From: an uncultured Flavobacteriaceae bacterium
Lineage (GTDB): Bacteria; Bacteroidota; Bacteroidia; Flavobacteriales; Flavobacteriaceae
NCBI GenBank assembly: GCA_947503005.1
Contig: CANNCA010000006.1
Span: forward strand, 1 to 64,000
Length of the DNA stretch: 64,000 bases
Direction of reading: 5' to 3'
Shown: positions 17,041 through 42,316 of the stretch, in pieces
Layout: every line of letters starts with the position of its first letter
Numbering within the stretch: the first letter of the stretch is position 1
Notes under the pieces: model-generated
What the model saw: the letters and a program-made list of their open reading frames with translations, nothing else
The model's database searches: none
What the model was told of the DNA's origin: nothing
Translations under genes and position numbers: made by a program

Positions 17041-17065
17041 AGATTCCTGCCTTCGCAGGAATGAC
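17041..17065. repeat. Dispersed palindrome copy 1 (between tRNA-Gly and tRNA-Thr)
   Basis: ATTCCTGC and GCAGGAAT (8-bp perfect stem) flank a CTTC loop, followed by GAC. It belongs to the same family as the copies at 26625, 27894, 32364, 41331 and 42294, and lies inside the tRNA-tuf transcript. Confidence 0.8.
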
Positions 17066-26148: not shown

Positions 26149-26595
26149 ATGAATGTTGAACAAATCATAAAAACTGATAAAGAAATTCCGCTTTATAGCA
26201 GAACTATTATTCATTTTATGTTGGTAAACAACAAGATAAACGAGGCCATATCAAAAGCACTAAAACCTTTTGACATTTCGTTGCAACAATTTAACGTCTT
26301 GCGTATCTTAAGGGGGCAGAACGGAAAACCAGCAAATCTTTCGACCTTGAACGAAAGAATGGTTACGAAGATGAGCAACACAACAAGATTGGTTGATAAA
26401 TTGATTTTGAAGGGTTTTGTTGATAGAATAATCTGTCCATCAAACCGAAGAAAAGTTGAAATTAATATTACCTCCGACGGTGAAAAAGTTTTGAAAGAGA
26501 TGGATACGGCGATGAGTACAGCAGAAAAATCCATCTTAAGAAATATTTCGGAAAAAGAATTGAAACAACTGAACGTATTGTTCGATAAATTTTAA
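26149..26595 (+). CDS. MarR family transcriptional regulator
   Basis: 148 residues with a winged helix-turn-helix core: PFDISLQQFNVLRILRGQNGKPANLSTLNERM, then the recognition helix region MSNTTRLVDKLILKGFVDRI (about 82-101) and the wing CPSNRRKVEINIT. It acts as a cytoplasmic dimer. It precedes the yceI gene in the same direction (69 bases apart, with a palindromic repeat between them). A regulator-YceI pairing suggests it controls yceI, but this is inferred from context only. Confidence 0.9.
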   Translation: MNVEQIIKTDKEIPLYSRTIIHFMLVNNKINEAISKALKPFDISLQQFNVLRILRGQNGKPANLSTLNERMVTKMSNTTRLVDKLILKGFVDRIICPSNRRKVEINITSDGEKVLKEMDTAMSTAEKSILRNISEKELKQLNVLFDKF

Positions 26596-26624
26596 TATAG
26601 GCACACTAATTTATTAATTAAAAA

Positions 26625-26647
26625 ATTCCCGCATGTGCGGGAATGAC
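26625..26647. repeat. Dispersed palindrome copy 2 (between marR and yceI)
   Basis: ATTCCCGCA and TGCGGGAAT form a 9-bp perfect stem with a 2-base loop, followed by GAC. It shares the outer ATTCCCGC...GGGAATGAC with the other copies. Confidence 0.8.
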
Positions 26648-26664
26648 GTTAAACCACATTATTT

Positions 26665-27318: not shown

Positions 27319-27349
27319 TTGGTGCTTTTAAAAATGATTTCTATATTTG
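27319..27349 (+). promoter_or_regulatory. trp operon promoter
   Basis: TTG (27319-27321), a 20-base spacer, then TATATTTG (27342-27349) match the Bacteroidota promoter in both elements. Predicted start lies at about 27355, just before the leader-peptide ATG, so the leader message is nearly leaderless. Confidence 0.75.
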
Positions 27350-27356
27350 ACCTTCA

Positions 27357-27413
27357 ATGAAAGAAATTAGAACAAATATTTGGTGGTGGAACAACTCTCG
27401 ACAGTTATCGTGA
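27357..27413 (+). CDS. trpL: trp operon leader peptide
   Basis: An 18-residue open frame MKEIRTNIWWWNNSRQLS with three consecutive tryptophan codons (27381-27389), starting just after the trp promoter. Its stop codon lies in a hairpin that precedes an attenuator hairpin (27441-27467). Consecutive codons for the pathway end product in a short leader ORF are the hallmark of ribosome-mediated attenuation: stalling at the Trp codons when charged tRNA-Trp is scarce would favour the antiterminator. The 294-base GIY-YIG gene now separates this leader from trpE. Confidence 0.88.
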   Translation: MKEIRTNIWWWNNSRQLS

Positions 27414-27475
27414 GCTGAGCATCATTATAGGAAAACTATATAAGGCCTGTCATCACGACAGGCCTTACTTATTTA
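27395..27475 (+). promoter_or_regulatory. trp attenuator (pause hairpin plus terminator)
   Basis: Segment 1:2 is CTCTCGA (27395-27401) with TCGTGAG (27408-27414), one mismatch, covering the leader stop codon. Segment 3:4 is a perfect 11-bp stem, TAAGGCCTGTC (27441-27451) with 27457-27467, followed by a moderately T-rich tail. A competing antiterminator is possible: GACAG-TTAT (27400-27408) can pair with ATAA and CTGTC around 27440-27451. The U-tract is weaker than that of other terminators in the window. Confidence 0.75.
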
Positions 27476-27490
27476 TAAGCATTTAATTTC

Positions 27491-27510
27491 ATTTCGACGA
27501 AGGTCGAAAT
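27491..27510. repeat. Palindrome upstream of the GIY-YIG gene
   Basis: ATTTCGAC (27491-27498) and GTCGAAAT (27503-27510) form a perfect 8-bp stem with a GAAG loop. The sequence differs from the ATTCCCGC family, so it is a second palindrome type. Confidence 0.75.
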
Positions 27511-27579
27511 CCCTTTGAAGGTAAAAAGTTGAAGTCGCATTGAAGATGGGAGTCCTGTTTAAATAGTAGAAAGGTTAGT

Positions 27580-27873
27580 TTGGACGGAAAAGATTTTTAC
27601 ATATACATCATAACCAACAAAAAGCTCGGTACACTTTACATTGGTTATGCAAATGATATGAAAGATAGAATGAAAAGACATAAATCAGGCAATGGAAGTG
27701 TTTTTGCGAAAAGATATAATCTCGATAAACTAGTTTACTATGAAAAATATAAGTTCCCGAATGTTGCTATAAAAAGAGAAAAACAACTGAAGAAATGGAA
27801 ACGTCAATGGAAAATCAACCTCATAAATGATTTCAATTCAAATTGGGAAGATTTGACTTATTTTTTCGAATAA
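27580..27873 (+). CDS. Small GIY-YIG nuclease domain protein
   Basis: 97 residues, essentially one GIY-YIG domain: Y7-I-Y9 and Y20-I-G22 form the family tyrosine pair, Arg30 lies in the DR motif, and Glu67 in AIKREKQLKKW is the metal-binding glutamate; the C-terminal NSNWEDLT fits small URI-type members. It is not UvrC, lacking all other domains. The start is a TTG at 27580 with AAGG five bases upstream; no ATG precedes the fold. It interrupts the trp regulatory leader, has a palindrome on each side, and is followed 61 bases later by trpE. Possible roles are nuclease of a repeat-associated mobile unit or an ordinary DNA processing enzyme; neither is demonstrated. Confidence 0.88.
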   Translation: MDGKDFYIYIITNKKLGTLYIGYANDMKDRMKRHKSGNGSVFAKRYNLDKLVYYEKYKFPNVAIKREKQLKKWKRQWKINLINDFNSNWEDLTYFFE

Positions 27874-27893
27874 AATGTAGAGAACATTAAACA

Positions 27894-27916
27894 GATTCCC
27901 GCCTTCGCGGGAATGA
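27894..27916. repeat. Dispersed palindrome copy 3 (between GIY-YIG and trpE)
   Basis: ATTCCCGC and GCGGGAAT flank a CTTC loop (perfect 8-bp stem). Flanking bases TAAACAG before and AATAAAGA after are shared with the copy at 32364, so the repeat unit is about 35 bases, larger than the palindrome. Confidence 0.85.
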
Positions 27917-27934
27917 AAATAAAGATTTCATTGT

Positions 27935-29332
27935 ATGAAATACCAATTACAATCACATCACAAGAAAATTTTGGCGGACACCATCACTCCAGTGAGTGTG
28001 TATTTGAAAATCAGGGACAGATTTCCGAACAGCATTCTCTTAGAAAGCAGTGATTATCACGCCAATGATAATAGTTTCTCTTATATCTGTTGCAACCCGA
28101 TTGCCTCGATAAAAGTTGAAAACGAAAATATTATTCAGCAGTTTCCTGACGGTTCTAAAGATGAAATTCAAATTGAGGAACGCACTGATGTGGTGGGAAT
28201 CATTCACGATTTTAGTCGGCGTTTCGAAACTAACAAAAGTGATTTCAAATTCATTTATAACGGACTCTTCGGTTACATGGCATATGATGCCGTTCGTTAC
28301 TATGAGGATGTAAAACTTTCAAAAAAGGATGGTACTATTAAAATACCTGATATCTATTACTCGGTATATCAGAACATTATCGCCATCAATCATTTTAAGA
28401 ACGAGGCCTATATTTTTGCAAACTGCTACGAGACTGAAAATAATGTTCCGGAAATTGAACAAATTCTGAACGTAAAGAATTTTGCTTCCTATAATTTTTC
28501 TTTGGACGGAAATGCAACTTCCAATTTAAAAGATGAAGAATATAAAGAACATGTTGAACTCGCCAAAAAGCATTGTCAACGTGGCGATGTCTTTCAACTT
28601 GTGTTATCTCGAAGATTTTCTCAAGGATTTAAAGGAGATGAATTTAACGTATATCGAGCACTTCGTTCCGTGAACCCTTCTCCTTATTTATTTTATTTTG
28701 ACTATGGAGATTTTAAAATCTTCGGAAGTTCGCCCGAAGCTCAGCTCATCGTCAAAGATGGTACAGCTGAAATACATCCCATCGCAGGAACCTTCAAACG
28801 AACCGGAAACGACGAACAAGATGCCATTTTAGCAAAAGAATTGACCGAAGACGATAAAGAAAATAGCGAGCACGTCATGTTGGTTGATTTGGCAAGAAAC
28901 GATTTAAGTCGCAACGGAAGCATGGTCAAAGTCACCAACTATCGTGAGGTTCAATTTTTCTCACATGTAATTCATTTGGTTTCGAAAGTAACCGGGCAAA
29001 AGAAAAAAGATACCCCCACCATGAAAGTGGTTGCCGATACTTTTCCAGCGGGAACGCTAAGTGGTGCGCCCAAACATATGGCAATGCAACTTATCGAGAA
29101 ATACGAAAAAACAAGCAGAGGGTATTATGGTGGAGCAATCGGTTTTATGGATTTTAATGGGAATTTCAACCATGCCATTATGATTCGAACTTTCTTGAGT
29201 AAAAACCATGAATTGCATTATCAGGCTGGTGCAGGTTTAGTCGCAGCCTCAGACGCAGAAGATGAATTACAAGAAACCTATAACAAACTAGGCGCTTTGA
29301 CAAAAGCCCTTGAAATTGCTGAAACGATTTAA
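27935..29332 (+). CDS. trpE: Anthranilate synthase component I
   Basis: Converts chorismate to anthranilate with ammonia supplied by TrpG, the first step of tryptophan synthesis. 465 residues in the chorismate-binding fold: N-terminal LLESSDYHANDNSFS region (feedback-binding LLES), RGDVFQLVLSRRF (about 216-228), NPSPYLFYF, GSSPEAQL, HPIAGTFKRTG (about 286-296) and the final YQAGAGLVAASDAEDE. Serine of the LLES motif is present, so Trp feedback inhibition is expected. First enzyme gene of the trp operon; overlaps no gene but is one base from trpG. Confidence 0.97.
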   Translation: MKYQLQSHHKKILADTITPVSVYLKIRDRFPNSILLESSDYHANDNSFSYICCNPIASIKVENENIIQQFPDGSKDEIQIEERTDVVGIIHDFSRRFETNKSDFKFIYNGLFGYMAYDAVRYYEDVKLSKKDGTIKIPDIYYSVYQNIIAINHFKNEAYIFANCYETENNVPEIEQILNVKNFASYNFSLDGNATSNLKDEEYKEHVELAKKHCQRGDVFQLVLSRRFSQGFKGDEFNVYRALRSVNPSPYLFYFDYGDFKIFGSSPEAQLIVKDGTAEIHPIAGTFKRTGNDEQDAILAKELTEDDKENSEHVMLVDLARNDLSRNGSMVKVTNYREVQFFSHVIHLVSKVTGQKKKDTPTMKVVADTFPAGTLSGAPKHMAMQLIEKYEKTSRGYYGGAIGFMDFNGNFNHAIMIRTFLSKNHELHYQAGAGLVAASDAEDELQETYNKLGALTKALEIAETI

Positions 29333-32363: not shown

Positions 32364-32387
32364 GATTCCCGCTTTTGTGGGAATGAC
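32364..32387. repeat. Dispersed palindrome copy 4 (between trpF and trpB)
   Basis: ATTCCCGC and GTGGGAAT (one G-T pair) flank a TTTT loop. Outer bases TAAACAG and AATAAAGA match those of copy 3 upstream of trpE. Confidence 0.85.
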
Positions 32388-32399
32388 AATAAAGAGAAT

Positions 32400-33581
32400 A
32401 TGTACCACGCAGACGAAAAAGGATACTACGGAGAATTCGGTGGAGCTTTTATTCCTGAAATGCTCTACCCGAATGTAGAAGAATTGCGCCAAAAGTATTT
32501 GGACATAATGTATGAAGAATCTTTTCAAAAGGAATTCAATCAATTATTAAAGGACTATGTCGGCAGGCCTTCTCCACTTTATTTTGCGAAACGACTTTCT
32601 GAAAAACACAGATGCAAAATCTACCTAAAGCGAGAAGATTTGAACCATACGGGAGCTCATAAAGTAAACAATACGATTGGTCAAATCTTGATGGCCAAAC
32701 GCTTAGGAAAAACTAGAATTATTGCCGAAACGGGTGCTGGACAACATGGCGTTGCTACGGCTACAGTTTGTGCGCTAATGGGTATGGAATGTATTGTTTA
32801 TATGGGCGAAATCGACATTGCACGTCAAGCACCAAATGTAGCCCGAATGAAAATGTTGGGGGCTACCGTTCGACCTGCATTATCAGGAAGTCGCACCCTA
32901 AAAGATGCCACCAACGAAGCCATTCGTGATTGGATAAATAATCCTGTTGATACGCATTATATTATTGGTTCTGCCATCGGCCCACACCCCTACCCTGATA
33001 TGGTCACCCGGTTTCAATCAGTAATTTCGGAGGAAATCAAATGGCAGCTGAAGGAGAAGGAAGGGCGCGAAAACCCTGATTATGTGGTTGCCTGTATCGG
33101 TGGTGGAAGCAACGCCGCCGGAACTTACTATCACTTTTTAGATGAGCCCGAAGTGGGTATTATTGCTGTGGAAGCGGCGGGAAAAGGAGTTGAATCTGGC
33201 GAAAGCGCAGCAACCTCAGCATTGGGTAAAATCGGAATTATCCACGGTTGTAAAACCATGTTAATGCAGACAGCTGATGGGCAAATAACAGAGCCCTATT
33301 CCATTTCTGCGGGATTAGATTATCCTGGTGTAGGCCCCATGCATTCGCATTTACACAAATCAGGCAGGGCGGAATTTTATTCTGCCACAGATGATGAAGC
33401 CATGACCGCAGGAGTAGAACTTTCACAATTGGAAGGAATCATTCCAGCCATCGAAACAGGCCATGCCTTCGCCATTTTCGCCCATAAGAAATTTAAGCCA
33501 GAGGACATTGTTGTGATTAGTCTCTCTGGGCGTGGAGATAAGGATTTGGATACATATATAGACTACTTTAAGTTAGCGTAA
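32400..33581 (+). CDS. trpB: Tryptophan synthase beta chain
   Basis: PLP enzyme condensing indole with serine. 393 residues (TrpB1 type): PLP lysine Lys88 in [11 protein letters not shown], phosphate-binding GGGSNAAG (about 233-240), and conserved AETGAGQHG (about 107-115). The last base of its stop codon is shared with the first base of trpA (overlap of one base), typical of coupled alpha/beta expression. Confidence 0.98.
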
Positions 33582-34345
33582 TGAGCAATAGAATTAATGA
33601 GAAGCTTCAGGAGGACAAAAAACTCCTCTCCATATACTTCACAGCTGGTTATCCGGCATTGGAAGACACCGTACAAATCATTCAAGATTTAGAAAAAAAT
33701 GGTGTTGACATGATTGAGATTGGCTTACCGTTCAGCGACCCATTGGCTGACGGACCAACGATTCAAGAAAGTTCTACGGCCGCTTTGAAAAACGGAATGA
33801 CCACTGAAAAACTTTTCGAACAACTGCATGACATTCGCAAAACCGTTTCAATTCCTCTAATAGTAATGGGCTATTTCAACCCCATGCTGCAATATGGCGT
33901 TGAAGCCTTCTGCAAAAAATGTCATGAGATTGGTATTGACGGTATTATCATGCCCGATTTACCCTTAGATGTCTACCAATCAGAATACGAAGCAACATTC
34001 AAAAAATACGGCCTAATTAATATTTTCTTGATTACACCGCAAACGAGTGATGAAAGAATTAAACAAATCGATGAAGCTTCTGACGGATTTATCTATATGG
34101 TAAGTTCAGCAAGTGTGACTGGTTCAAGTTCGGGCTTTGGAAAAACTCAGACCGATTATTTTGAGCGTATTGCTGAGATGAATTTAAAGAACCCACAAAT
34201 TGTAGGTTTTGGTATTAAAGATGCTAAAACTTTTCAAACCGCTACAAAAAATGCAAATGGAGCAATTATTGGTTCTGCGTTTATTAAACATTTGACGGCT
34301 AATGGAGTGGATTCTATATCAAATTTTATAAAGAAGATTCGTTGA
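33581..34345 (+). CDS. trpA: Tryptophan synthase alpha chain
   Basis: Cleaves indole-3-glycerol phosphate and channels indole to TrpB. A 254-residue TIM barrel with catalytic Glu46 (DMIEIGLPFSDP) and Asp57 (ADGPTIQ) in place. Last enzyme gene of the trp operon, followed after one base by a small membrane protein gene. Confidence 0.97.
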   Translation: MSNRINEKLQEDKKLLSIYFTAGYPALEDTVQIIQDLEKNGVDMIEIGLPFSDPLADGPTIQESSTAALKNGMTTEKLFEQLHDIRKTVSIPLIVMGYFNPMLQYGVEAFCKKCHEIGIDGIIMPDLPLDVYQSEYEATFKKYGLINIFLITPQTSDERIKQIDEASDGFIYMVSSASVTGSSSGFGKTQTDYFERIAEMNLKNPQIVGFGIKDAKTFQTATKNANGAIIGSAFIKHLTANGVDSISNFIKKIR

Positions 34346-41330: not shown

Positions 41331-41355
41331 GTCATTCTCACGACGGCGGGAATCT
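41331..41355. repeat. Dispersed palindrome copy 5 (reverse orientation)
   Basis: On the minus strand it reads AGATTCCCGCCGTCGTGAGA and then ATGAC, a degenerate copy with imperfect stem. It lies in the ppc-glycosylase spacer. Confidence 0.65.
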
Positions 41356-42293: not shown

Positions 42294-42316
42294 GGTTCCT
42301 GCCTTCGCAGGAATGA
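42294..42316. repeat. Dispersed palindrome copy 6 (before the THX gene)
   Basis: TTCCTGC and GCAGGAA flank a CTTC loop (perfect 7-bp stem), with AAAACAG before it and AATGA after it as in the other copies. It ends 15 bases before the THX start. Confidence 0.8.

Follow-up and report, generated by a model that had tools for sequence, protein, structure and literature searches.

A family of small GIY-YIG nucleases is probably the cognate enzyme of the CGTC REPs, its gene lying in a widespread REP-gene-REP unit in which the palindromes serve as terminal repeats. A widespread class of bacterial repeats has been missing its partner enzyme, and the family is a strong candidate for that role. CGTC REPs were described by Di Nocera et al. 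in 2013 (PMC3733652), and the accessible text of that survey gives them a CGTC or TGTC tag, a stem of 8-9 bp that nearly always starts with AT, a loop of 4-5 bases and a tail mostly fitting CCA. It records them from Proteobacteria, Bacteroidetes and three further phyla, with dimers as their main form and dRS3 as their form in Neisseria. As far as that text goes, they have no associated transposase gene and 'apparently lack a dedicated transposase'; the mobiliser was left open in 2013, with the suggestion that the enzyme had vanished or been replaced (PMC3733652).

The window, that is, the whole 64,000-nucleotide stretch analysed from an uncultured Flavobacteriaceae bacterium, holds one such unit between the trp attenuator and trpE (Table 1). 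Across loci, conservation ends just beyond the tag, and the limits of the unit were drawn from this edge together with the empty sites. The left palindrome, ATTTCGAC-GAAG-GTCGAAAT, is perfect, and its position is occupied by an orthologous palindrome in G200, L038 and L039; the right one reads ATTCCCGC-CTTC-GCGGGAAT. Both have 8-bp stems starting ATT, the loop on the right is the complement of that on the left, and the four-base tags face outward. The original prediction spoke of two different palindromes; the stems do differ, but both belong to one REP superfamily and stand in inverted orientation. It also placed palindromes on both sides of the gene and an 8-mer, ATTTCATT, at both ends, and this layout was confirmed, with the 8-mer at 27486-27493 and again ending two bases 5' of trpE. 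Its suggestion that this direct repeat might be a sign of insertion did not survive. The repeat is neither a target-site duplication nor another insertion footprint: the left copy overlaps the palindrome and consists of the REP tag plus the first stem bases, and the right copy is host sequence that already stands at the empty site of G205 (AAAGATTTCATTGA 5' of trpE). The 8-mer occurs 752 times in the window's genome, counting both strands. The predicted attenuator 5' of the block was recognised as a Bacteroid-trp leader, though at 36.9 bits, under the gathering score of 49, and its sequence was recovered in congeners.

Table 1. Positions, in window coordinates, of the unit upstream of trpE and of neighbouring features.
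Feature	Coordinates	Strand	Remarks
Whole REP-gene-REP unit	27487..27918	+	432 bases; inferred, approximate limits
trp leader/attenuator region (context)	27337..27451	+	5' of the unit; Rfam RF01692 Bacteroid-trp
Left REP	27487..27513	+	tag TTTC (degenerate TGTC); palindrome 27491-27510; tail CCC
GIY-YIG nuclease gene	27580..27873	+	TTG start, 97 codons plus stop; PF01541
Right REP, inverted	27893..27918	-	palindrome 27895-27914; tag GAAA (reverse complement) 27915-27918
Second ATTTCATT	27925..27932	+	host sequence outside the unit; also at the G205 empty site
trpE (context)	27935..29332	+	match at E<=1e-150 in 13 of 14 genomes of the genus
trpB-trpA overlap TAATG	33579..33583	+	empty here; second unit at this site in four congeners

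Hairpins are concentrated beside the gene. One scan of named genome contigs yielded 166 relatives, and in the best 80 of these 166 loci the density of hairpins (arms of at least 7, loop 3-6) was 8.5-9.1 per kb within 100 bp of the gene on either side, compared with about 0.3 per kb farther than 700 bp away. Hairpins were about as common upstream as downstream. The expectation that palindromes would accompany GIY-YIG homologues was borne out in this set, a hairpin with a loop of 4 or 5 lying within 80 bp of the gene in 72 of the best 80 of 166 loci, and on both sides in 44. Because REPs are mostly intergenic, a second comparison was restricted to non-coding segments, and it gave the same answer: hairpins occurred in 125 of 146 gene-adjacent segments versus 24 of 105 others of the same loci, or 6.0 versus 2.1 per kb, the densities being the fairer comparison since adjacent segments are longer. 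The wider set comprised 170 distinct genes; full flanks were available for 169, of which 8 were outgroup GIY-YIG genes. A hairpin was present on at least one side in 138 of the 169 and on both in 102, and a strict tag motif lay within 200 nt upstream in 91 of 147 in-group genes compared with 48 of 1413 far windows. The remaining 31 genes, with no simple hairpin within about 130 nt, include the 8 outgroup genes and 14 members of a single clade. In that clade tags were found upstream of 10 genes and downstream of 7 (far windows, 2/137). By eye, its members L206, L208, L186, L188, L201, L213 and L216 have long, bulged, tagged repeats, possibly a third repeat architecture.

The link does not extend to GIY-YIG genes in general. 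Around the six others found in the window's genome, 700 bases to either side hold no palindrome of REP type, and one AT-rich hairpin lies near L003; the yazA-type gene L147 has no palindromes within 250 bases, and the 8 outgroup genes had a tag upstream in none and downstream in one. Congeners hold further small GIY-YIG genes without upstream tagged palindromes (L154, L155, L157, L158, L167, L181 and L182), and the G205 genome has 14 GIY-YIG matches of all kinds. The hairpins might be transcription terminators or mRNA stabilisers with no connection to the nuclease, and their position near both gene ends, often within operons, speaks for this. The reading is highly improbable, and terminators are disfavoured with it: hairpins are no rarer upstream than downstream, both tag and tail show conservation, copies are dispersed, stem type tends to track the enzyme clade, and the six other genomic genes and the outgroup genes lack such upstream repeats.

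The arrangement is also found well outside the Flavobacteriaceae. A protein search of a plasmid collection matched 34 records, with hosts including Azospirillum lipoferum 4B, Novosphingobium aromaticivorans, Sinorhizobium meliloti and Neisseria; several of these hosts are also among those of CGTC REPs in the accessible text of the survey, and Bacteroidetes are a further shared group (PMC3733652). REP-type hairpins lay within 250 bases on both sides, with at least one outward-facing pair, in 12 of the 18 loci fetched, from Rhizobiaceae, Sphingomonadaceae, Azospirillum, Aeromonas and Neisseria, the last being counted although its repeats are clustered there. As for the others, R. tumorigenes L142 lacks a flanking pair and has hairpins only about 190 bases downstream, Photobacterium L137 has one side only, with a hairpin 197 bases downstream, Sinorhizobium K101 (L145) carries tagged palindromes in another arrangement, and Planktothrix L131 and Spirosoma L143 showed none under the simple-hairpin criterion.

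The repeats beside the gene belong to a dispersed type. Palindromes of the ATTCCCGC type occur 6 times in the window at up to 3 mismatches, where 0.12 are expected, and at 43 places in the whole genome at up to 2 mismatches, where the reversed pattern has a single one. In the family at large, the gene is flanked by inverted REPs of the type that is dispersed in the genome. On the strength of the enrichment, the distance profile and the non-coding control, chance is rejected as the source of the palindromes or of their association with the gene. The ATTTCGAC type showed no enrichment in the window: allowing up to 3 mismatches there are 2 copies versus an expected 0.48, and 9 of 100 shuffles gave 2 or more. 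Five more REP-type palindromes, with 0 to 3 mismatches, stand in the window with no gene alongside, at 26625-26644, 32365-32384 (between trpF and trpB), 17043-17062, 41334-41353 and 42295-42314. Sub-threshold matches to the Francisella sRNA FtrB of Rfam also lie over REPs of the window (27838-27931 and 26585-26657, both on the minus strand); our guess is that the FtrB family may itself include a CGTC-type REP.

The nearest loop-4 repeats gave the consensus TTGTCATTCCTGCGAAGGCAGGAATCCA, found 53 times upstream as written and 46 times downstream as the reverse complement. It comprises a TGTC tag, an 8-bp stem from AT, a loop of 4 and a CCA tail, and is inverted downstream of the gene. The five-base-loop type is skewed, with 15 downstream and 2 upstream. 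The tag is TGTC in the main set and CGTC in alphaproteobacterial copies, neither being the GTAG of REP/RAYT systems. This consensus, together with the alphaproteobacterial copies, agrees with every structural point of the description of CGTC REPs in the accessible text of the survey (PMC3733652). The window's own two copies carry the degenerate tag TTTC; in the structural features tested, both palindromes fit the CGTC-tagged superfamily, with their tags outward.

Enzyme and repeats also tended to occur together, both across genomes and in type. Among 199 Flavobacteriaceae genomes the gene, counted as present at E<=1e-8, was found in 98, in up to 7 copies per genome. Repeats of the ATTCCTGC type (up to 1 mismatch) had a median of 4 in genomes with the gene (n=98) and 0 in those without (n=101; p=7e-12), and five or more were found in 41 of the 98 carriers versus 11 of the 101 others. 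The association is not strict, with at least one such repeat in 33 of the 101 genomes without a detected gene and none in 23 of the 98 carriers. Two further repeat types were also commoner with the gene (p=9e-6 and 1e-13). Repeats of the ATTTCCGC type were more numerous in the nine genomes with an enzyme of that type than in the remaining gene carriers, also once two repeats were subtracted for the flanking pair (p=6e-6); the equivalent test for ATGCTGAA was weak (p=0.023, 7 genomes). In the window's genome, about 43 ATTCCCGC-type repeats accompany a single gene copy.

Matching was also seen between the two sides of a locus. Left and right stems were identical in 59 of 102 two-sided loci, where shuffling gave a mean of 23 and a maximum of 34 in 10,000 rounds, and the excess persisted without the commonest pair (20/63 versus 3.2 shuffled); the other 43 of the 102, the window's unit included, have non-identical stems. 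On a tree of 169 enzymes (fasttree on 89 columns, 77 of 165 inner branches being open), repeat type changed 42 times versus 66 in shuffled data, whose minimum in 300 was 63. The nearest enzyme from elsewhere shared the repeat label in 82 of 138 cases and differed in 56, with 38 matches expected; without the commonest type, 22 of 67 matched against 1.8 expected. Since host relatedness could by itself produce agreement between clade and repeat, comparisons within a genome matter most. G061 has three gene copies with three repeat types, each matching that of the nearest enzyme of another genome, a partner under 85% identical; type matched in 3 of 4 copies in G044 and, by exact label, in 0 of 4 in G141. 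In these sequence comparisons, repeat types tended to track the clades of the enzyme.

The prediction that the 97-codon gene encodes a GIY-YIG nuclease proved correct. The 97-aa window protein matches PF01541 at 59.6 bits (cut-off 22.6; 3.7e-16), this is its only Pfam match, and no Y1/HUH tyrosine transposase was found in it. PF01541 was matched by 35 of 35 members of alignment A1; Y20, G22, R30, H34 and E67 are invariant in 35 rows, with a yazA-type outgroup included, and Y9 is also invariant in an alignment of 34 rows. We take the conserved Tyr, Gly, Arg and Glu positions to be the catalytic residues of the GIY-YIG superfamily. The AlphaFold2 model (mean pLDDT 94.6) predicts a GIY-YIG core followed by a basic C-terminal segment, with consensus KKWKRQWK. 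The closest solved structures by sequence were of UPF0213 only (PDB 1zg2 and 1ywl), and a Foldseek search with the model ranked 1zg2 first and Slx1 next, at a weak E of 0.02, with no match at E<=0.001. Matches to homing endonucleases of phage and of a defence library were weak.

The nuclease gene is under purifying selection, dN/dS being about 0.02-0.16 in nine of eleven pairs, those with measurable dS. This pattern fits either a selfish element that needs the gene for its spread or a useful host gene. On the latter reading, the nuclease would process or repair REP cruciforms and be kept by its substrate, with no role in spreading, and its weak fold likeness to the branched-DNA nuclease Slx1 points the same way as the selection. 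We regard this as improbable given the selfish pattern of the family: up to 7 copies in one genome, patchy presence in 98 of 199 genomes, decayed copies, and arrays with shortened copies. Copy number, patchiness and decay favour a selfish element over a useful host gene. Head-to-tail arrays of two or three copies, 94-97% identical and with a period of 490-550 bases, were found in L042 (3004-3753), L067 (3004-3816) and L080 (3004-4272). One full and two shortened copies lie in L066 (3004-3845), L023 being the same stretch from another collection. Decayed copies with stops occur in G200 (at the trpE site), L063 and others.

Occupied and empty sites were found side by side among relatives. All 13 genomes of the genus with TrpE, the window's (G000) included, were readable upstream of it: G000 and G200 are occupied, G050 has a different, longer spacer, and ten are empty, with the attenuator motif 35-41 bases from the trpE start and no REP. 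The original prediction looked to relatives for such empty sites and took the block for an insertion. Empty sites do exist, but the direction of change is unsettled, as L038 and L039, whose TrpE is 81 and 83% identical, have the block at the same place; an old insertion followed by repeated loss is as possible as a recent gain. The unit at trpE looks old rather than freshly inserted. Its right palindrome has a different stem in each of four species, with 2-3 of the eight stem pairs altered on both sides in three species relative to G000 and one broken pair, in L039. As these four palindromes were picked by position, the paired changes point to selection on the fold, or to repeated copying.

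At trpB-trpA, eleven genomes were readable. Five of them, G000 included, have the stop/start overlap TAATG or TGATG, four congeners have a second GIY-YIG unit there, complete with a REP pair of its own, G207 (L222) has a tagged insert of about 87 bp that lacks the gene, and G050 a different spacer of about 74 bp. TAAT stands on both flanks in two of the four units, which is at most suggestive. In Azospirillum lipoferum, a GIY-YIG gene and two REP dimers (four REPs, one imperfect) lie between sufB and sufC (L139, 1357-1975); the site is empty in two sister species (96.2 and 95.7% identical) and holds a longer, unrelated spacer in a third (94.9%). None of the three sites, trpE, trpB-trpA and sufB-sufC, yielded a clean target-site duplication; at sufB-sufC the divergence of the spacers hides the junction. 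In coarse view, a Shinella relative lacks the gene. For Rhizobium L133, no gene-less record with both flanks was among the matches listed, and one flank is an IS4 element.

These sites bear on the idea that REPs spread by other means and that the GIY-YIG gene codes for a free-standing homing endonuclease, which cuts gene-less REP dimers, the gene then being copied into them through REP recombination. GIY-YIG is a classic homing-endonuclease fold, and the weak matches to such enzymes and the gene-less insert at trpB-trpA of G207 are in keeping with this idea. So is the predominance of dimers among CGTC REPs in the accessible text of the survey (PMC3733652). Homing would, however, require an empty allele that holds a REP as its site, and no REP was present at the empty trpE (ten genomes) or trpB-trpA (five genomes) sites, which indicates that REPs and gene arrived or left together. 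Moreover, repeat type tends to track the enzyme clade even inside one genome, and a passenger would have no need of this unless it was already matched in specificity. We therefore consider homing unlikely.

As the cognate enzyme of the REPs, the nuclease would recognise the folded repeat, as a hairpin on single-stranded DNA or as a cruciform, and nick the foot of the extruded hairpin, at the TGTC tag or next to it. Host replication and repair would then copy the pair of REPs elsewhere, either together with the gene or alone. The known GIY-YIG enzymes cut DNA by hydrolysis, with no covalent intermediate, so strand transfer would require help from the host. The arrays and shortened copies could reflect replicative slippage or recombination following nicking. 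More tentatively, and with slightly more doubt than confidence, we propose that the unit, about 430 bp long, belongs to a novel class of autonomous transposable elements, with a GIY-YIG nuclease of about 97 aa as its only protein and hairpin-forming inverted-repeat ends. It might spread both itself and gene-less REP pairs without a known transposase, and the CGTC REPs of Bacteroidota, Alphaproteobacteria, Neisseria (dRS3) and others might stem from it.

With a candidate enzyme of 97 residues inside the repeat pair and tending to match it in type, the question of what mobilises CGTC REPs becomes directly testable. If our reading is true, two unrelated nuclease superfamilies have converged on a partnership with palindromic repeats, and genes labelled just 'GIY-YIG nuclease family protein' or 'excinuclease ABC subunit C' gain a likely role. 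Our literature search, with preprints and most subscription papers outside its scope, found no report linking GIY-YIG to REP-type repeats among the papers listed, and the link to CGTC REPs may have been published elsewhere. The sole co-mention with extragenic palindromes that we found, in the accessible text of PMC9465073, is a table with a RAYT gene and a GIY-YIG gene as separate entries.

Among known GIY-YIG proteins, the nuclease is closest in solved structure to the UPF0213/YazA type; the yazA-type gene L147, however, lies between a tRNA methyltransferase gene and rsmI, without palindromes, and its product lacks the KKWKRQWK segment. Slx1 has the same fold and acts on branched DNA, but repeats are absent; it also works with a partner, Slx4, and has a RING domain. 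Free-standing homing endonucleases of the Seg/I-TevI kind share the catalytic domain and are likewise small, patchy nuclease genes, whereas the protein of the unit has only about 97 aa, its gene is surrounded by inverted palindromes and no intron was seen. The repeats themselves resemble CGTC REPs in tag, stem length, AT start, loop of 4-5 bases and CCA tail, with the difference that a GIY-YIG gene stands alongside here while the survey, in its accessible text, has no associated enzyme (PMC3733652). The original prediction likened the block to REP/RAYT systems, and the comparison is apt. In REP/RAYT (TnpA_REP) and REPIN systems, as here, a small dedicated DNA-cutting enzyme is encoded between inverted tagged palindromes, the palindromes are also dispersed, and enzyme and repeat types match. 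Unlike there, many unit-bearing genomes have several gene copies, the tag is CGTC/TGTC rather than GTAG, and the enzyme is a GIY-YIG nuclease instead of a Y1/HUH tyrosine transposase. The unit is best read as working like REP/RAYT with unrelated chemistry; having neither a tyrosine transposase nor the GTAG tag, it is no member of that family.
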